DNA from: Petrosia ficiformis
Lineage: Eukaryota > Porifera > Demospongiae > Haplosclerida > Petrosiidae
DNA: 64,000 nt
Assembly (NCBI GenBank): GCA_947044365.1
Contig: OX345636.1
Location: forward strand, 15,115,115 to 15,179,114
Direction of reading: 5' to 3'
Part shown: positions 4,129 to 40,899 of the stretch, in pieces
How the letters are laid out: the number at the start of each line of letters is the position of its first letter
How positions within the stretch are numbered: the stretch's first letter is position 1
Notes under the pieces: generated by a model
Database searches by the model: none
Seen by the model: the letters and a program-made list of their open reading frames with translations, nothing else
What the model was told of the DNA's origin: nothing
Made by a program: the position numbers and the translations under genes

Positions 4129-7100
4129 TCAGTTATATAACAACTTACATTCATCCTCACTCTTGTACATCACTCTGTCTACAGGATAGGAATATAATGA
4201 GAGGTATTCTTGATATCTGTCTGATAGTACAAGTTTAATATTATTCTTCATTACAGCACCAGCTAATACTTTAGCACCATCTTGTCCCATTGTACCATTT
4301 TCATCAAATATTCTTATCTCTTCCAAATTGTTATTAACAAGTGAATCAGCAAGGTATTTAGCTGTTTGAAGATCAATATTTTGATAAATAGTCACATATT
4401 TTATTGTATGGTTCAGTCTGAGAAGATCATTTAACACACGATAGTCTGTAACATTATCATATAAGATTAATGATTGTACTGAACTATTATATGAGAGTCC
4501 TGTTATAAGTGTTTCAGTTACACCATACCCTTGAATATGCCAAAGTGTTAATTTTGTAACACCTGTATTGTATTGTAACCCTTCAGCTACTACTTCAGCT
4601 ACTTCCATAGATTTAATACAGTGAAACAGTTTGATTTTTCTCAAAGTTGAATTCTCAATTAGAACTTTTTTTAGTGCCATAGCCTCTTCCTTCTCCATTT
4701 CCAGACTATTCAACTCCAATGAAGTTAATGTTGTATTGTTTCGTAGTCTTTGCACAAGGGTTCCCACCCCTTCAATACTCTCCAGTGCCAATTTCGTAAT
4801 ACCTGTATTGTATTGTAACCCTTCAGCTACTACTTTAGCTACTTCAATAGATTTAATACATTTATACAGTTCGATTTCTCTTAAAGTTGTATTCTCAATT
4901 AGAACTTGTTTTAGTGACATGGCTTCTTCCTTCTCCATTTCCAGACTATTCAACTCCAATGAAGTTAATGTTGTATTGTTTCGTAGTCTTTGCACAAGGG
5001 TTCCCACCCATTCAATACCACACAGTACCAATTTCGTAACACCTGTACTGTATTGTAACCCTTCAGCTACTACTTTAGCTGCTTCAATAGATGTAATACA
5101 TTCATTTAGTTTGATTTCTCTCAATGTTGTATTCTCAATTAGAACTTGTTTTAGTGACATAGCCTCTTCCTTATCCATTTCCAGATACTTCAACTCCAAT
5201 GAAGTTAATGTTCTATTACTTTGTAGTTTTTGCACAAGGGTTCCCACCCCTTCACTACCCCACAGTACCAATTTCGTAATACCTGTATTGTATTGTAACC
5301 CTTCAGCTACTACTTCAGCTACTTCCATAGATTTAATACATTCATTTAGTTTGATTTCTCTCAATGTTGTATTCTCAATTAGAACTTGTTTTAGTGACAT
5401 AGCCCCTTCCTTATCCATTTTGAGAGCATACAACTTCAATGAAGTTAATGTTGTATTATTTCGTAGTCTTTGCACAAGGGTTCCCACCCCTTCACTACCC
5501 CACAGTACCAATTTCGTAACACCTGTATTGTATTGTAACCCTTCAGCTACTACTTCAGCTACTTCCATAGATTTAATACATTCAAACAGTTCGATTTCTT
5601 TCAAAGTTGTATTCTCAATTAGAACTTGTTTTAGTGACATAGCCCCTTCCTTATCCATTTCTAGATTACGCAAATTCAATGAAGTTAAAGAAGAATTAGT
5701 ACTTATAATTTCTAATCCCAACAATTGAAAGTTATTCAGTGATAATGTTTTTAGACTCTTACTTTGTTGTATTCCTTCAAATAACTCTTTTCTGATATTA
5801 AAAGAAATAGAATGCTCTTCATTTGGAGGACAGTTAGAGCATTGTAAGTTACCTTTCAATGTCAAACCTGTGAGGTTTATATTTTCAATAAGGAAATGCT
5901 TCAATGCTATGGAGCCTTCATTGTTCATCATGATATTACATAACTTTAATAAAACTATTGACTTATTTTGTGATAGTCCTTCTGGTGATAGGTTCATCAA
6001 AGCACAGTTACTCAAGATCAGTGATTTTAATGTTGTTGTTTGTCTTAGTCCATTACTTACTATATGACTTGAATCATCTATAACAATACTTGTAAGATCT
6101 AATGTTTCTAAACAGGTCATCAGATGAAGTGAAGAAAAAAGTGGAGCACAATTTAGTTTCTTATCGGAACCATCAAGTTGAAATCTTTTTAGTTTAGGAC
6201 AATATTTGTATAGTTGGGAAAGTTCATCACAACAGATATAATTATCAGCATGTGATTTGGAATGAGTAAAGTTGCTATGAGAGTAAGAAAAAAATAAAGA
6301 AAGGTCAGAGAGTGCTTTTGTGTGTTTTTCGAGTTGAAATAGCATTTGAAAACATTTAGAGTAGTCAGTAACTTCCCTAATTGTTAAACCATTAATCATT
6401 CCTCCCATACTACTACTAGATGTACTACTGATCATTGATTGTAATAAATGATTGCTAAGATCAGCAATCTTCCACATTGCTGTGGAGGAACTATGAGATA
6501 TACAATATCCAGTGATGTAACCTTGAAGTTTGGATTTAATGTCAACTTGATACTGGTCCTCTTTTAATACTGTTGAAATATATTCTGGATTTTGTGATTC
6601 AAACAGTAAATAAAGAACATTATGATTTACAGAAGAAAGTTTCATGCCAACAAAAATGTTTTCAAGTGGTGTTCCTACAACTCCTGTTAATCCTCCATAG
6701 AAGTGTAACACTGGCCAGTGAATATTAGAATATTCCTGTCTATATTTATCTTCAGCCCAAAAATGTCCAGAAATATAATCTTTTACTGGTAATGCACCTG
6801 TTTCTTTAAAAAGAGGAGAAACATCCTCAGATGAAAATTTTGACCAGTGGAGAGCAGCAAGATACTCTTGAAGTGTCAAGTGAAGGAAACTGTATGAAAC
6901 AGATTTAGACTTACGAGATTCATTGTCATTTACCCTCTGCATAAGACCCAGTGTGTTATGTGTAAGATTATCAAATACATATTCTTGCTCTCCAATACCT
7001 ATCGCAGCTAATTCAGCAAGTCTCATTAGATCATCAAACACATCTTGTGGTAAGTCTGTTAGTTCTTGAACACAGAGTTCATGTGGTCCATACACAGGAT

Positions 7101-8396
7101 GATCATCAAGATATCGTTCTAGTAGTGAGTGAATGAAACAAGTGTAGAGTTGTGTGATGGTTTTTGGTGCAAACTCTTTCTTTCCTTTCCTCCAATATGT
7201 CTGGTACAAGTCAGTCACTAATGCACAATGAAGAGGAATATACATGGCTTTATATATGAATGGATGAGATGATATATATGACTGGAAATCTATCAACACG
7301 TCTGGAGTATCACAAAATTTACACTTAACATATCCATCAATGTCATTATCACTAAATCCAACCACTTCAATATGTTCATGAAGCTGTTCCCTGAACCCTA
7401 TAGGAAGCTCTCGAGTAGCTAAAGGACGACTGGTTACAAGTAAAGTAGCACTTGGTAATAGTCTTCTGACTAGTAATCGTTGAAAAACTGATGTTCTTTT
7501 TTTCTGTTTTTTTGAAAGCTCATCATATCCATCAAATATTATCATAACACCATTTCCACATGTCCTCTTTATGTAGCCTAACTCACTCCCAAACTGTTTG
7601 TCAGGATCAAGAAGCTCTTCTAAATTACTTGCTTCTCTTGCATCCACATCACGAAGTTGTATCAATACTACAACATCCCATTGTTGTAGTAGTCTATTTT
7701 CTCCCCATCCCTTACAAAGTTCCCATACTAATGTTGTCTTCCCTACACCAGGATCTCCTTCTATAAGTACGTTACGAGGAAGTTTTTCCCCTTCCTTTAC
7801 TCCAGCTATTTGTTCAATACCTAAAGGTACTCTTTGCTGTACATATCTTATCACATTTCCATGAAGCTTATCTGTCATTCCTTCTACTCTCTCTTCCTTA
7901 TTTTTTCTTTGTTTGTGTACAAGTTCTAAATTTATAAACTTTTTGATTGATGGATTTGGTCCCTTGAAATAGGTAGGAAATTCTGTTGTTTGATAACGGG
8001 CCCTCTGGTAGTTTCTATATAATCTTATCTCATGAGGATCAGAGATCATGTGTGTTCTGTACATAACAGTGGATGATTGTGGAGGAGTTGGTTGACCATT
8101 AGTGGATTTAATAGAAGAGCATTCACTAACATTTTCTATCATAGTAGAACTTGAAATACTGTCAGGAATTGATTGATGTTGTGGAAGTGTAGAGATATTT
8201 GTAGTAGCAGATGATGATTGTGTTTGCTGATCTGTTCTTGGTCGTTTTTGAGGATATGATTGAAGATCACTTTCTTCATCGCAACATCGTTTGGTTAAAG
8301 AGGAAGCTGAAGGTGACATTTGTTCATTTGTCTTCAGTTTCTTACGAGGTGGTTGAGAATTACTCTGGCCATCACTATAATCTGAACTTGTAACAT
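4129..8396 (-). CDS. NLR-A, NACHT-LRR exon (last exon)
   Basis: This large exon encodes the sensor part of an NLR-type cytoplasmic innate-immune receptor. It opens at a splice acceptor (AG at 8,397-8,398) in phase 1, so the codon G|AT gives Asp, and runs 1,421 codons to a stop at 4,129. Numbered from the first Met (8,319), a Ser/Thr/Gln-rich linker covers about residues 1-90. The NACHT NTPase follows, with Walker A GDPGVGKTT at about 188-196, Walker B IIFDGYDEL at about 260-268 and a sensor-like TLLVTSRP near 293-300. The helical NACHT-associated region extends to about 650. LRRs fill about 700-1,290, and the core is five tandem 80-residue cassettes (240 bp each, about 4,540-5,700). The frame is intact. 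Upstream exons at 12,510-14,719 very probably belong to the same gene. The exon alone looks full length for the family. Confidence 0.92.
4540..5700 (-). repeat. Array of five 240-bp LRR cassettes in NLR-A
   Basis: The landmark CCTGTATTGTATTGTAACCC recurs at 4,562, 4,802, 5,042, 5,282 and 5,522, an exact 240-bp (80-residue) period. Each unit encodes about three LRRs with the core VLIENTTLREI / VAEGLQYNTGVTKL / LVQRLRNNTTLTSL. Divergence is concentrated in a few residues per LRR. The paralogue NLR-B has four units, so the array changes length by whole in-frame cassettes. Confidence 0.9.
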
Positions 8397-12509: not shown

Positions 12510-12767
12510 ATGGATAGTCCCTAGTAATTTCACTTGCAAGTCCCTCCTTACATACTAAAGGACTACGTAAAGCTGTAACTAAGATGACCCAAGATGCTCG
12601 GCCTGTGTCTATCCAGTGTGAAAGCATGTTACGAAGACAATCCAGGTGCTTAGAATAGTCTGTTTTAATCCTCACAATGATATCATTTGTTAAACCAAGC
12701 TCAATGCCCAGGGTAGACCAATCATTGATAGTATGTGTGGCTCTCATAACTGATGCAATATCTTTCT
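12510..12767 (-). CDS. NLR-A, Death-domain exon
   Basis: This is an 86-codon exon between a CAG acceptor (12,768-12,770) and a GTAAGT donor (12,504-12,509), phase 1 at both ends. The product has the Death-domain pattern: NDWSTLGIELGL, an Ile-rich helix (NDIIVRIKTDY), CLRNMLSHWIDTG, ASWVILVTALRS and a final helix GLASEITRDY. Death domains recruit partners through homotypic contacts. The exon lies on the same strand upstream of the NACHT exon, and its donor phase matches that exon's acceptor phase, so it should supply the second N-terminal module of NLR-A. The family call is confident. The splice link to the NACHT exon is inferred across about 4.1 kb of mobile DNA. Confidence 0.82.
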
Positions 12768-13656: not shown

Positions 13657-13686
13657 CTGTCAATGGTCGATCATCTACCATCATAT
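13657..13686 (-). CDS. NLR-A, 30-bp linker exon (predicted)
   Basis: This microexon encodes about ten residues (xMMVDDRPLT). It lies between a CAG acceptor (13,687-13,689, preceded by GAATTCCA) and a GTAATC donor (13,651-13,656), phase 1 on both sides. It fits exactly in frame between the two Death-type exons. Its short length means chance occurrence is possible; support comes from position, phase and splice sites only. Confidence 0.5.
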
Positions 13687-14026: not shown

Positions 14027-14311
14027 CTAATTTTTTCCTCATTTCATCTGCAGTATCTATCTCTCCACACCTGTATATCATTGGTACTAATTCTTTCCAT
14101 GATGCTTCTGATGTGTTTTTAATCCACCATTCCAATGCTATTTCTAATGCATATTCATATGCTTTATCTTCCTCTATTATACATGTAGCTCTCATCTTTT
14201 CCATCATTTTCTCTTGCGGAACATTCAAGATACTAGTTAACAAACTCCACTTGCTCTTAAAATTAAACCCACATTCACGAAGCAGTGCTACTGCATTGCT
14301 AGGAGTAAAAT
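14027..14311 (-). CDS. NLR-A, first Death-type exon
   Basis: This is a 95-codon exon with a TATAG acceptor (AG at 14,312-14,313) and a GTAAGT donor (14,021-14,026), phase 1 at both ends. The product begins (D)FTPSNAVALLRECGF and continues through KWSLLTSILNVPQEKM, EYALEIALEWWIKN, ASWKELVPMIYRCG and ADEMRKKLG. The Trp/Leu spacing, the ALEWWIKNTSEASWKEL core and the terminal amphipathic helix indicate a Death-fold domain, although divergent. It follows the 2A-like exon after a short intron of about 128 bp, and precedes the linker and second Death exon. Tandem Death-type domains would give NLR-A two homotypic interaction surfaces. Confidence 0.75.
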
Positions 14312-14439
14312 CTATAATATTTATAAGAAATAATTATTAATTATCATGATTATCAATTAATAACTATTACAACAATATACTCTGCATTGCTTTGTTATTT
14401 ATGTGTTAAGGTACATACATGTATGATGTAATCACTAAC

Positions 14440-14719
14440 CCACAGGTCCTGGATTTTTCTCCACATCACCAGAAAGTATGAGTTGTATAAATATACACAC
14501 AGTGAGTGTGTATAACAATACACTAGTATGACTGAGTAATGAGTAACATGATTGAAATGTATTAGTTTCATAAAGACAGTCTTTGGTCCAATGTGGTTGT
14601 GTTTGTTGGTTATAACAACTACTTTTTCTCTTGAAAGGTTTCAGACGGCAACACCACATTCCAATACAAACTCTCCATTGTGTAAGATCAATCATTATGA
14701 ATTCTGTAGTAGAAAACAT
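14440..14719 (-). CDS. NLR-A, N-terminal exon with hydrophobic segment and 2A-like motif
   Basis: An in-frame stop precedes the first ATG (14,719). The 93-codon frame ends at a GTTAGT donor (14,434-14,439) in phase 1, matching the next exon. Residues about 66-82 form a strongly hydrophobic, signal-like segment (SVLLYTLTVCIFIQLIL). It runs directly into SGDVEKNPGP at residues 83-92, which fits the D-V/I-E-x-N-P-G-P consensus of ribosome-skipping 2A peptides perfectly. Cleavage-like skipping would fall between G91 and P92, separating the leader from a Death-Death-NACHT-LRR protein. An alternative start is ATG 14,695, used if a TTTTCTACTACAG acceptor (AG at 14,704-14,705) joins a 5' leader exon. 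2A-like leaders are known on some invertebrate NLRs (sea urchin). Activity here is unproven. Confidence 0.78.
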
Positions 14720-37038: not shown

Positions 37039-40000
37039 TCAGTTATATAACAACTTACATTCATCCTCACTCTTGTACATCACTCTGTCTACAGGATAGG
37101 AATACAATGAGAGGTATTCTTGATATCTGTCTGATAGTACTAGTTTAATAGTATTCTTCATTACAGCATCAGCTAATACTTTAGTGCCATCTTGACCCAT
37201 TCTACCTTCCTTGTCAAATATTCTTATCTCTTCTAAATTGTTATTACCAAGTGAATCAGCAATGTATTTAACTGTTTGAAGATCAATATCTTGATAAATA
37301 GTCACATATTTTATTGTTTGGTTCTGTGCGAGAAGATCATTTAACACACGACAGTCTGTGTCATTATCACATAAGATTAATAATTGTACTGAACTATTAT
37401 ATGATAGTCCTTTTTATAAGTGTTTCAGTTACACCATCCACTTGAATAAGAATAAGTGTTAATTTCGTAATACCAGTATTGTATTGTAACCCTTCAGCTA
37501 CTACTTCAGCTACTTCCATAGATTTAATACAGTGAAACAGTTTGATTTCTCTCAAAGTTGTATTCTCAATTAGAAATTGTTTTAGTGCCATAGCCTCTTC
37601 CTTATCCATTTCCAGATACTTCAACTTCAATGAAGTTAATGTTGTATTGTTTCGTAGTCTTTGCACAAGTGCTCCAACCCCTTTAATACCCCCTAGTACC
37701 AATTTCGTAACACCTGTATTGTATTGTAACCCTTCAGCTACTACTTCAGCTACTTCAATAGATTTAATACATATTAACAGTTCAATTTCTTTCAAAGTTT
37801 TATTCTCAATTAGCATGTGTTTTAGTGACATAGCCTCTTCCGTATTCATTTCTAAACTACTCAACACCAATGAAGTTAATGTTGTATTATTTCGTAGTCT
37901 TTGCACAAGTGCTCCAACCCCTTTAATACCCCCTAGTACCAATTTTGTAACACCTGTATTGTATTGTAACCCTTCAGCTACTACTTCAGCTACTTCCATA
38001 GATTTAATACATTTAAACAGTTCGATTTTTTTCAAAGTTGTATTATCAATTAGCACTTGTTTTAGTGACATGGCTTCTTCCTTCTTCATTTCCAGACTAT
38101 TCAACTCCAATGAAGTTAATGTTGTATTGTTTCGTAGTCTTTGCACAAGGGTTTCAACCCATTTAATACGACACAGTACCAATTTCGTAATACCTGTATT
38201 GTATTGTAACCCTTCAGCTACTACTTCAGCTACTTCCATAGATTTAATACATTCAATCAGTTTGATTTCTCTCAAAGTTGTATTCTCAATTAGCACTTGT
38301 TTTAGTGACATAGCCCCTTCCTTATCTATTTCAAGATTATGCAAATCCAATGAAGTTAAAGAAGAATTAGTACTTATCATTTCTAATCCCAACAATAATT
38401 GAAAGTTATCCAGTGATAATGTTTTTAGACTCTTACTTTGTTGTATTCCTTCAAATAACTCTTTTCTGATATTAAAAGAAATAGAATGCTCTTCATTTGG
38501 AGGACAGTTAGAGCATTGTAAGTTACCTTTCAATGTCAAACCTGTGAGGTTTATATTTTCAATAAGGAAATGCTTCAATGCTATGGAGCCTTCATTGTTC
38601 ATCATGATATTACATAACTCTAATAAAACTATTGACTTATTTTGTGATAGTCCTTCTGGTGATAAGTTCATCAAATCACAGTTTCTCAAGGTCAGTGATT
38701 TTAATGTTGTTGTTTGTCTTAGTCCATTACTTACTATATGACTTGAATCATCTATAACAATACTTGTAAGATCTAATGTTTCTAAACAGGTCATCAGATG
38801 AAGTGAAGAAAAAAGTGGAGCACAATTTAGTTTCTTATCGGAACCATCATGTTGAAATCTTTTTAGTTTAGGACAATATTTGTATAGTTGGGAAAGTTCA
38901 TCACAACAGATATAATTATCATCATGTGATTTTGAATGAGTAAAGTTGCTATGAGAGTAAGAAAAAAATAAAGAAAGGTCAGAGAGTGCTTTTGTGTGTT
39001 TTTCGAGTTGAAATAGCATTTGAAAACATTTAGAGTAGTCAGTAACTTCCCTAATTGTTAAACCATTAATCATTCCTCCCATACTACTACTAGATGTACT
39101 ACTGATCATTGATTGTAATAAATGATTGCTAAGATCAGCAATCTTCCACATTGCTGTGGAGGAACTATGAGATATACAATATCCAGTGATGTAACCTTGA
39201 AGTTTGGATCTAATGTCAACTTGATACTGGTCCTCTTTTAATACTGTTGAAATATAATCTGGATTTTGTGATTCAAACAGTAAATAAAGAACATTATGAT
39301 TTACAGAAGAAAGTTTCATGCCAACAAAAATGTTTTCAAGTGGTGTTCCTACAACTCCTGTTAATCCTCCATAGAAGTGTAACACTGGCCAGTGAATATT
39401 AGAATATTCCTGTCTATATTTATCTTCAGCCCAAAAATATCCAGAAATATATTCTTTCACTGGTAATGCACCTGTTTCTGTAAAAAGAGGAGACACTTCC
39501 TCAGATGAAAGTTTAGACCAGTAGAGAGCAGCAAGATACTCTTGAAGCGTCAAATGAAGGAAACTGTATGAAACAGATTTAGCCTTACGAGATTCACTGT
39601 CATTTACCCTCTGCATAAGACCCAGTGTGTTATGCGTAAGATTATCAAATACATATTCTTGCTCTCCAATACCTTTCGCTGCTAGTTCAGCAAGTTTCAT
39701 TAGATCATCATACACATCTTGTGGTAAGTCTGTTAGTTCTTGAACACAGAGTTTATGTGGTCCATACACAGGATGATCATCAAGATATCGTTCTAGTAGT
39801 GAGTGAATGAAACAAGTGTAAAGTTGTGTGATGGTTTTTGGTGCAAACTCTTTCTTTCCTTTCCTCCAATATGTCTGGTACAAGTCAGTCACTAATGCAC
39901 AATGAAGAGGAATATACATGGCTTTATATATGAATGGATGAGATGATATATATGACTGGAAATCTATCAACATGTCTGGAGTATTACAAAATTTACACTT

Positions 40001-40899
40001 AACATATTCATCAATGTCATTATCACTAAACCCAACCACTTCAATATGTTCATGAAGCTGTTCCCTGAACTCCATAGGAAGTTCTTGTGTAGCTAAAGGA
40101 CGACTGGTTACAAGTAAAGTAGCACCTGGTAATAGTCTTCTGACTAGTAATCGTTGAAAAACTGATGTTCGTTGTTTCTGCTTTTCTGAAAGCTCATCAT
40201 ATCCATCAAATATTATCATAACACCATTTCCACATGTCCTCTTTATATAGTCTATCTCACTCCCAAACTGTTTATCAGGATCAAGAAGCTCTTCTAAATT
40301 ACTTGCTTCTCTTGCATCCACATCACGAAGTTGTATCAATACTACAACATCCCATTGTTTTAGTAGTCTATTTTCTTCCCATCCCTTACACAGTTCCCAT
40401 GCTAGTGTTGTCTTCCCTACACCAGGATCTCCTTCAATAAGTATCTTACGAGGAAGTTTTTCACTCCCCTTCACTTCAGCTATTTGTTCAATACCTAAAG
40501 GTTCTCTATGCTGTACAAACTGTTCTACATTTCCATATAGCTTTTTCATCATTCCTTCTTCTCTCTCTTCTTTATTTTCTCTCCGTTTGTGTACAAGTTT
40601 TAAATTTATAAACTTTCTGATTGATGGATTTGGTCCCTTGAAATAAGTAGGAAATTCTGTTGTTTGATAACGAGTCCTCTGGTAGTTTCTATATAATCTT
40701 ATCTCATGAGGATCTGAGATCATGTGTGTTCTGTACATAACAGTGGATGATTGTGGAGGAGTTGGTTGAGCATATGACTGAAGATCGCTCTCTTTGTCAT
40801 GACATGATATCATTCGAGAGGAAGATGATATTTGTTCATGTGTCTGTAGTTTCTTATGAGGTGGTTGAGGATTACTACTAGACTCGAAAGTTGTAACAT
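37039..40899 (-). pseudogene. NLR-B, NACHT-LRR exon with one frameshift
   Basis: This is the paralogue of the NLR-A main exon, with the same acceptor (AG at 40,900-40,901) and phase. Walker A GDPGVGKTTLAWELCKGW, Walker B IIFDGYDELS and LLVTSRPLA are intact. The N-terminal linker is about 57 residues shorter (SYAQPTPPQSS). LRRs include four 80-residue cassettes (about 37,440-38,340), one fewer than NLR-A. One extra base in a T run at about 37,411-37,415 (NLR-A has CCTGTTATAAG, here CCTTTTTATAAG) stops the long frame at 37,397. The rest of the C-terminus, to the stop at 37,039, continues intact in the next frame. The total length is otherwise a whole number of codons, so this single base is the only lesion. 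It could be a recent mutation, a truncated but working allele, or an assembly error. The upstream CARD exon probably belongs to it. Confidence 0.88.
37440..38340 (-). repeat. Array of four 240-bp LRR cassettes in NLR-B
   Basis: The landmark GTATTGTATTGTAACCC recurs at about 37,475, 37,715, 37,955 and 38,195, an exact 240-bp period. Two central units share long identical blocks (VLGGIKGVGALVQRLRNNTT twice), so exchange within the array is recent. Confidence 0.9.

Follow-up and report, generated by a model that had tools for sequence, protein, structure and literature searches.

The window analysed here, a 64-kb stretch of contig 1 of the 191.2-Mb assembly of the sponge Petrosia ficiformis, carries an NLR gene whose first coding exon most likely encodes an 84-residue leader, and this predicted leader most likely ends in an active StopGo/2A signal. 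Comparison across the genome showed that the predicted leader is one member of a standard cassette, consisting of an N-terminal QWRxxIGxW motif, a variable middle, a hydrophobic segment, the sequence DVExNPGP and a phase-1 donor, and at roughly a hundred genomic sites this cassette stands just ahead of Death-like and NACHT exons. The original prediction of a 2A-type leader on an NLR has strong support in the sequence and extends to a whole family in this sponge genome. The parts of the window gene are the following (slashes within sequences mark predicted splice sites):

14440..14703, minus strand: leader exon, likely internal, with an acceptor-like CAG ending at 14704, coding from the ATG at 14695, and a phase-1 donor GG/GTTAGT
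14654..14695, minus strand: conserved motif with which the leader begins (residues 1-14, MIDLTQWRVCIGMW), from dN/dS and the QWRxxIGx[FW] counts in the genome
14525..14653, minus strand: residues 15-57, variable middle of the leader, from dN/dS and gaps
14468..14524, minus strand: residues 58-76 (SVLLYTLTVCIFIQLILSG), hydrophobic segment, putative signal or tail anchor, from hydropathy
14444..14467, minus strand: residues 77-84, StopGo/2A core DVEKNPGP, with skipping expected between Gly83 and Pro84 (14447/14446)
14312..14439, minus strand: intron 1, 128 nt, predicted from splice signals
14027..14311, minus strand: Death-like exon, phase 1-1, from homology to the corresponding exons of leader types B and C
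13657..13686, minus strand: small exon (DMMVDDRPLT), phase 1-1, predicted from splice signals
12510..12767, minus strand: Death domain exon, the fourth coding exon (Pfam Death, 2.4e-5)
4129..8396, minus strand: NACHT exon, the fifth coding exon (Pfam NACHT, 1.7e-21), with LRR-like repeats recognised by eye

The predicted product of the leader exon (14703-14440, minus strand) starts with MIDLTQWRVCIGMW and ends with LLYTLTVCIFIQLILSGDVEKNPGPV, giving the 84-residue leader and then Val. The acceptor-like sequence CTACTACAG lies directly before 14703, the exon ends in CCTGTGG/GTTAGT at 14440, and the second coding exon begins at 14311 (TTATAG/ATTTTACT), with a GAT codon spanning the joint. A similar acceptor is found ahead of most type-A leaders, among which a GGTTAGT-type donor is also recurrent. 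The in-phase joint of the leader exon to a Death-like exon is thus as had been proposed, a phase-1 joint at 14440/14311 drawn from splice signals. The start at 14719 is one part of the original prediction that we do not retain: an in-frame upstream ATG is present there, but it lies before the likely splice acceptor, and the NLR-type leaders listed start at the second ATG, with MIDL or one of a few variants such as MSDL and MIGI. When the five coding exons (14695-14440, 14311-14027, 13686-13657, 12767-12510 and 8396-4129) are joined, every joint is in phase 1 and the product is 1698 residues long, with no inner stops.

Of the domain order Death-Death-NACHT-LRR, as first read, Pfam recognised Death in the fourth exon only and NACHT in the fifth, and the gene has the NACHT with a Death-type N-terminus by which NLR family membership is judged. 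The exon right after the leader yielded no Pfam Death match of its own; we call it Death-like from its homology, at about 30-44%, with the equivalent exons of the other leader types, and those of types B and C fell just short of the Pfam Death cut-off, with 3.3e-4 and 3.9e-4 (21.2 and 20.9 bits against 22.6). LRR-like repeats are visible by eye, and Pfam listed no LRR family for the NACHT exon; the leader itself had no Pfam match. A second NLR lies in the window at 39920-40876 (minus strand), its NACHT (39920-40459) being 91% identical to the first, and no leader or Death match was found for it within the window.

A codon-level search for D[V/I]ExNPGP gave a single hit in the window against 0 in 100 shuffles, and 205 hits in the whole genome against 0 for a reversed-pattern control, which rules out a chance motif. 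Searching the genome with the leader protein gave 131 matching places, from which 116 NLR-type copies were kept, the 15 left out being a fragment listed in duplicate and short matches that were partial or came from mobile elements. The sequence analysis covered 110 of the 116 leaders; 107 were parsed (69-97 residues long) and three, each with a stop inside, were left unparsed. Leaders were assigned to NACHT genes by proximity, with a set of 163 NACHT matches listed (two listings united, fragments included, one broken copy counted by its first fragment), and a set of 131 Death places was likewise compiled from two listings (two split copies merged, one short fragment left out).

Among the NACHT matches listed, a same-strand NACHT lies no more than 10 kb downstream of at least 94 of the 116 leaders and no more than 10 kb upstream of 13. 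Over the same distance the listing shows an opposite-strand NACHT downstream of none of the 116 and upstream of one, and 22 leaders have no listed NACHT within 10 kb. Taken from the receptor side, 98 of the 163 NACHT matches listed have a leader within 10 kb upstream and 65 have none, and for 59 there is no leader within 25 kb. A Death-like exon follows within 300 nt downstream in 88 of the 116 leaders. This agreement of strand, side and spacing rules out that leaders are strewn about the genome regardless of NLRs. Four type-A leaders at 53.8-54.7 Mb of contig C1 (L038, L039, L040 and L047) have a Death-like exon close by and no NACHT within 16.5 kb among the matches listed.

The tight spacing of the Death-like exon behind the leaders also speaks against an artefact of the gene model, in which the leader exon would not be joined to the NLR. 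The splice joint was inferred from sequence, which leaves room for such an error, but we hold it to be very improbable. In types A, B and C, wherever the joint can be drawn, the donor is in phase 1 and lies a few residues past NPGP, the Death-like exon contributes to the post-skip product from its 3rd to 5th residue onwards, and the donors are recurrent. Moreover, leader and NACHT of the paralogue L063 lie in a single unspliced frame of 702 aa, and a leader-NACHT fusion is thereby shown independently of any splice model. The L063 leader continues in frame into another N-terminal stretch and then into NACHT; no Death-like exon was found within 2 kb of L063 or of further contig 3 leaders of type C.

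The 107 parsed leaders comprise 56 of type A, 20 of type B, 29 of type C and two of type D. When the nearest NACHT within 16.5 kb was taken from the matches listed and classed by its identity to two reference NACHTs, type A was found with two NACHT classes (45 and 7 leaders), type B with the same two classes (15 and 1) and type C with a third class (28), and 11 leaders had none. The only B case with a window-type NACHT (L149, G000:C1:54873600-54878900) has a B leader and a B-type Death-like exon, an apparent chimera whose mixed pairing we take as a sign of domain shuffling.

The StopGo core (D/G/C/N)(V/I)ExNPGP is present in the window leader and exact in 106 of the 107 parsed leaders, the exception ending in NPGL. 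The hexapeptide upstream of the core ends in (A/S/C)G before D in 106 of 107 and is mostly L-rich: LLILSG was found 55 times, LLLLCG 19 times and QLILSG, the hexapeptide of the window leader, 18 times, and 97 of the 107 fit [LQ]L[LI]L[SC]G. By-eye comparison with the motif descriptions in excerpts of PMC12846837 places them with the L-rich motifs 2 and 6, in which (A/S/C)G likewise precedes D; skipping was supported by an example of motif 6 assayed in reticulocyte lysate, and the same excerpts describe StopGo as rare in cellular genes. Since both the core and the hexapeptides belong to a class with an example of skipping, efficient skipping would be expected, and the unskipped form may be minor.

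Along the leader, conservation is found in the N-terminal QWRxxIGxW motif and in the 2A core, with a more variable middle, as seen from dN/dS given as pooled Nei-Gojobori ratios within types, in which the pairs of a type are not independent. For types A, B and C respectively, the ratio is 0.32, 0.17 and 0.05 over the N-terminal 14 residues; 0.81, 0.44 and 1.15 over the middle, where gaps amount to 28%, 13% and 1%; 0.44, 0.55 and 0.22 over the hydrophobic part; and 0.24, 0.23 and 0 over the 2A core. In type B the middle (0.44) evolves no faster than the hydrophobic part (0.55), and synonymous changes are too scarce in the type C core (pS 0.012) for its ratio of 0 to carry much information. For the window leader and five relatives, pN/pS is 0.16 at the N-terminus, 0.60 in the middle and 0.45 over the last 32 residues. 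In the genome, the QWRxxIGx[FW] codon pattern occurs 199 times against four in the reversed control. Because the N-terminal motif is conserved even though skipping would detach it from the receptor, the leader peptide, or the unskipped form, would appear to have a job; alternatively, this conservation could stem from a function in translation or within the unskipped protein.

Similar leaders are found outside NLRs. At G000:C2:14082300-14089264 (L144-L146), a Helitron with Helitron_like_N (3.7e-34), OTU, PIF1 (1.4e-20) and endonuclease domains in one frame of 2246 aa opens with an F-form QWR...2A leader, MVSIEQWRAAIGGF...LLLSGDVETNPGP; domains give the Helitron identity for this one element, and the other F-form copies are labelled from their leaders alone. 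Neither this leader nor the conserved N-terminal motif figured in the original prediction. The sequence downstream of L010, which has no QWR motif, is by eye common with that of the L144 Helitron. Tested against the F-form leaders, the profile of the NLR leaders scored 8.7e-9 at best (L002 type) and 1.8e-6 for the domain-checked Helitron leader, but LINE-like frames that lack the motif also score 0.002, so the 2A end contributes part of these full-length scores. A profile of the first 20 residues gave 0.0014 for the L002 type and 0.66 for the domain-checked Helitron leader, whose N-terminal likeness therefore rests on the common QWRxxIG motif. In a tree built from 33 leaders (L021, six of mobile-element type and 26 drawn from the 107 parsed), the mobile-element leaders grouped together (82/93) beside types C and D, with only four of the 30 branches well supported and a long-branch warning. 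Two LINE-like frames recognised by eye (L017 and L023) have the 2A core followed by a Zn-finger-like stretch and no QWR motif. Finally, a D-type leader (L150, G000:C2:12195640-12199140) stands ahead of a 937-aa ankyrin-repeat frame, with a possible phase-1 joint by eye, and such leaders are therefore perhaps not restricted to NLRs.

This likeness to the leaders of mobile elements in the same genome leads us to consider whether the 2A of the NLR leaders could be inactive, an inherited and perhaps mobile-element-derived segment that would mainly give a membrane-anchored NLR. NLRs with transmembrane domains have indeed been reported in a sponge, in excerpts of PMC12909245 that credit the first such report to A. 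queenslandica. We nevertheless consider an inactive 2A improbable, given a core that is exact in all but one of the parsed leaders while the middle varies. Furthermore, on contigs C1 and C2 a 2A lies within 400 nt of the motif in 23 of 25 copies of the W form, typical of NLRs, against 30 of 50 of the F form, typical of mobile elements (Fisher p = 0.006, related copies not being independent), and it is thus the NLR-type leaders that keep the 2A more often.

The hydrophobic stretch running straight into DVEKNPGP on a spliced-in exon is present as described (14524-14468 and 14467-14444). Judged with simple hydropathy scales, residues 58-76 have the highest 19-residue hydropathy in the 1698-aa predicted protein, and hydropathy reaches 1.6 in 105 of the 107 parsed leaders. 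The signal-like segment originally placed at the N-terminus is accordingly the strongest hydrophobic segment of the predicted protein, but it is not N-terminal, and its position is more suggestive of an internal signal anchor or of a tail anchor. A classical N-terminal signal peptide is, from this position, not favoured.

We find it reasonably probable that the 84-residue leader, through an active StopGo, releases a small tail-anchor-like peptide and a cytosolic NLR started by Pro. The ribosome would usually skip the Gly83-Pro84 bond, and the NLR, its first residue now a Pro that borders the first Death-like domain, would remain in the cytosol. The ribosome exit tunnel takes up about 30-40 residues; the leader would be released with its hydrophobic stretch still inside the tunnel, and so would leave with a membrane segment near its C-terminus, as a small protein resembling a tail-anchored one, with the conserved motif in the cytosol. 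This leader peptide would be made about 1:1 with the receptor and would itself be a functional product. Where skipping fails, the hydrophobic segment would serve as an internal signal anchor and bring the NLR onto the secretory route.

The original prediction had put that last outcome at the centre, with partial or regulated skipping dividing each NLR between the cytosol and the membrane or secretory route. The hydrophobic segment, as the best membrane segment of the predicted protein and a moderately conserved one (see the ratios above), would suit such dual targeting, and in the related layout of sea urchin NLRs a skipping-dead P3A mutant leader routed a reporter mainly to the Golgi (excerpts of PMC4981915). 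We still regard a switch of this kind as unlikely: efficient skipping is expected from the class to which the hexapeptides and core belong, so that the fused form may be rare, the conservation of the segment is also explained by its being the upstream part of the 2A, and regulation has no sign in the present sequence data.

The release of a leader peptide invites a broader and more tentative proposal, which we put forward as possible though somewhat doubtful: the leader may be a conserved tail-anchored QWRxxIGxW micro-protein made about 1:1 with each receptor by skipping, and carried on a portable phase-1 exon cassette common to Helitrons and to innate receptors (NLRs and ankyrin-repeat proteins), which would make it a recoding module exchanged between mobile elements and the immune repertoire. 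The Helitron link would supply a possible carrier for the spread of the leader, and the conserved motif in the very piece that skipping discards makes the leader peptide a candidate new component of invertebrate immunity. It may be of relevance, too, for the membrane-spanning NLRs that have been described from sponges. About a hundred StopGo-type copies stand beside innate receptor genes in one animal genome, in a phylum far from sea urchins, and this points either to an ancient trait of animal NLRs or to its having been gained repeatedly. Our literature search returned no paper on Helitrons together with 2A-like sequences, and no report of a 2A on sponge NLRs among the matches listed; Rao et al. 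2025 (Cell Rep 44:115822), Yuen et al. 2014 and Odon et al. 2013 are possible prior sources.

Three known systems invite comparison. Odon et al. 2013 reportedly dealt with 2A-like sequences of non-LTR retrotransposons, in which the 2A core is likewise near the N-terminus of mobile-element frames, and P. ficiformis has LINE-like copies by eye; the domain-checked element with a QWR leader in this genome is, in contrast, a Helitron. The viral StopGo/2A sequences of the L-rich class (LLLLSG-like, motifs 2 and 6 in excerpts of PMC12846837) share with the sponge leaders an L-rich hexapeptide ending in (A/S/C)G, followed by D(V/I)ExNPGP, but act within viral polyproteins, whereas in the sponge the 2A lies near the N-terminus of cellular genes.

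The closest parallel is in sea urchins, from which N-terminal 2A sequences on NLRs are already known. According to excerpts of Roulston et al. 2016 (PMC4981915), SpNLR2A leaders occur on about 35% (85 of 241) of the NLRs of Strongylocentrotus purpuratus, and such a leader was skipped at about 80% in vitro, by the authors' qualitative estimate. In those excerpts, as in the sponge, the copies are many and a hydrophobic tract runs into D(V/I)ExNPGP; in the sea urchin the 2A-like sequences are carried by Death-NACHT-LRR proteins, at their N-terminus or close to it, and the window gene likewise has its 2A near the N-terminus of a Death-NACHT protein. They differ in that 14 of the sea urchin leaders are 26 residues long and at the very N-terminus, the others lying within the N-terminal region, and the short form counts as a predicted co-translational signal sequence, whereas the window leader has 84 aa, with its hydrophobic part at residues 58-76. 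As far as the excerpts describe SpNLR2A, the sponge leaders are further set apart by the conserved QWRxxIGxW motif, the variable middle, the internal hydrophobic segment and a usually separate phase-1 exon, and by the similar leaders on a Helitron and before an ankyrin-repeat frame. What is new here is therefore the sponge host, a long leader on an exon of its own with two conserved ends, the Helitron and ankyrin leaders, and the pattern of selection.
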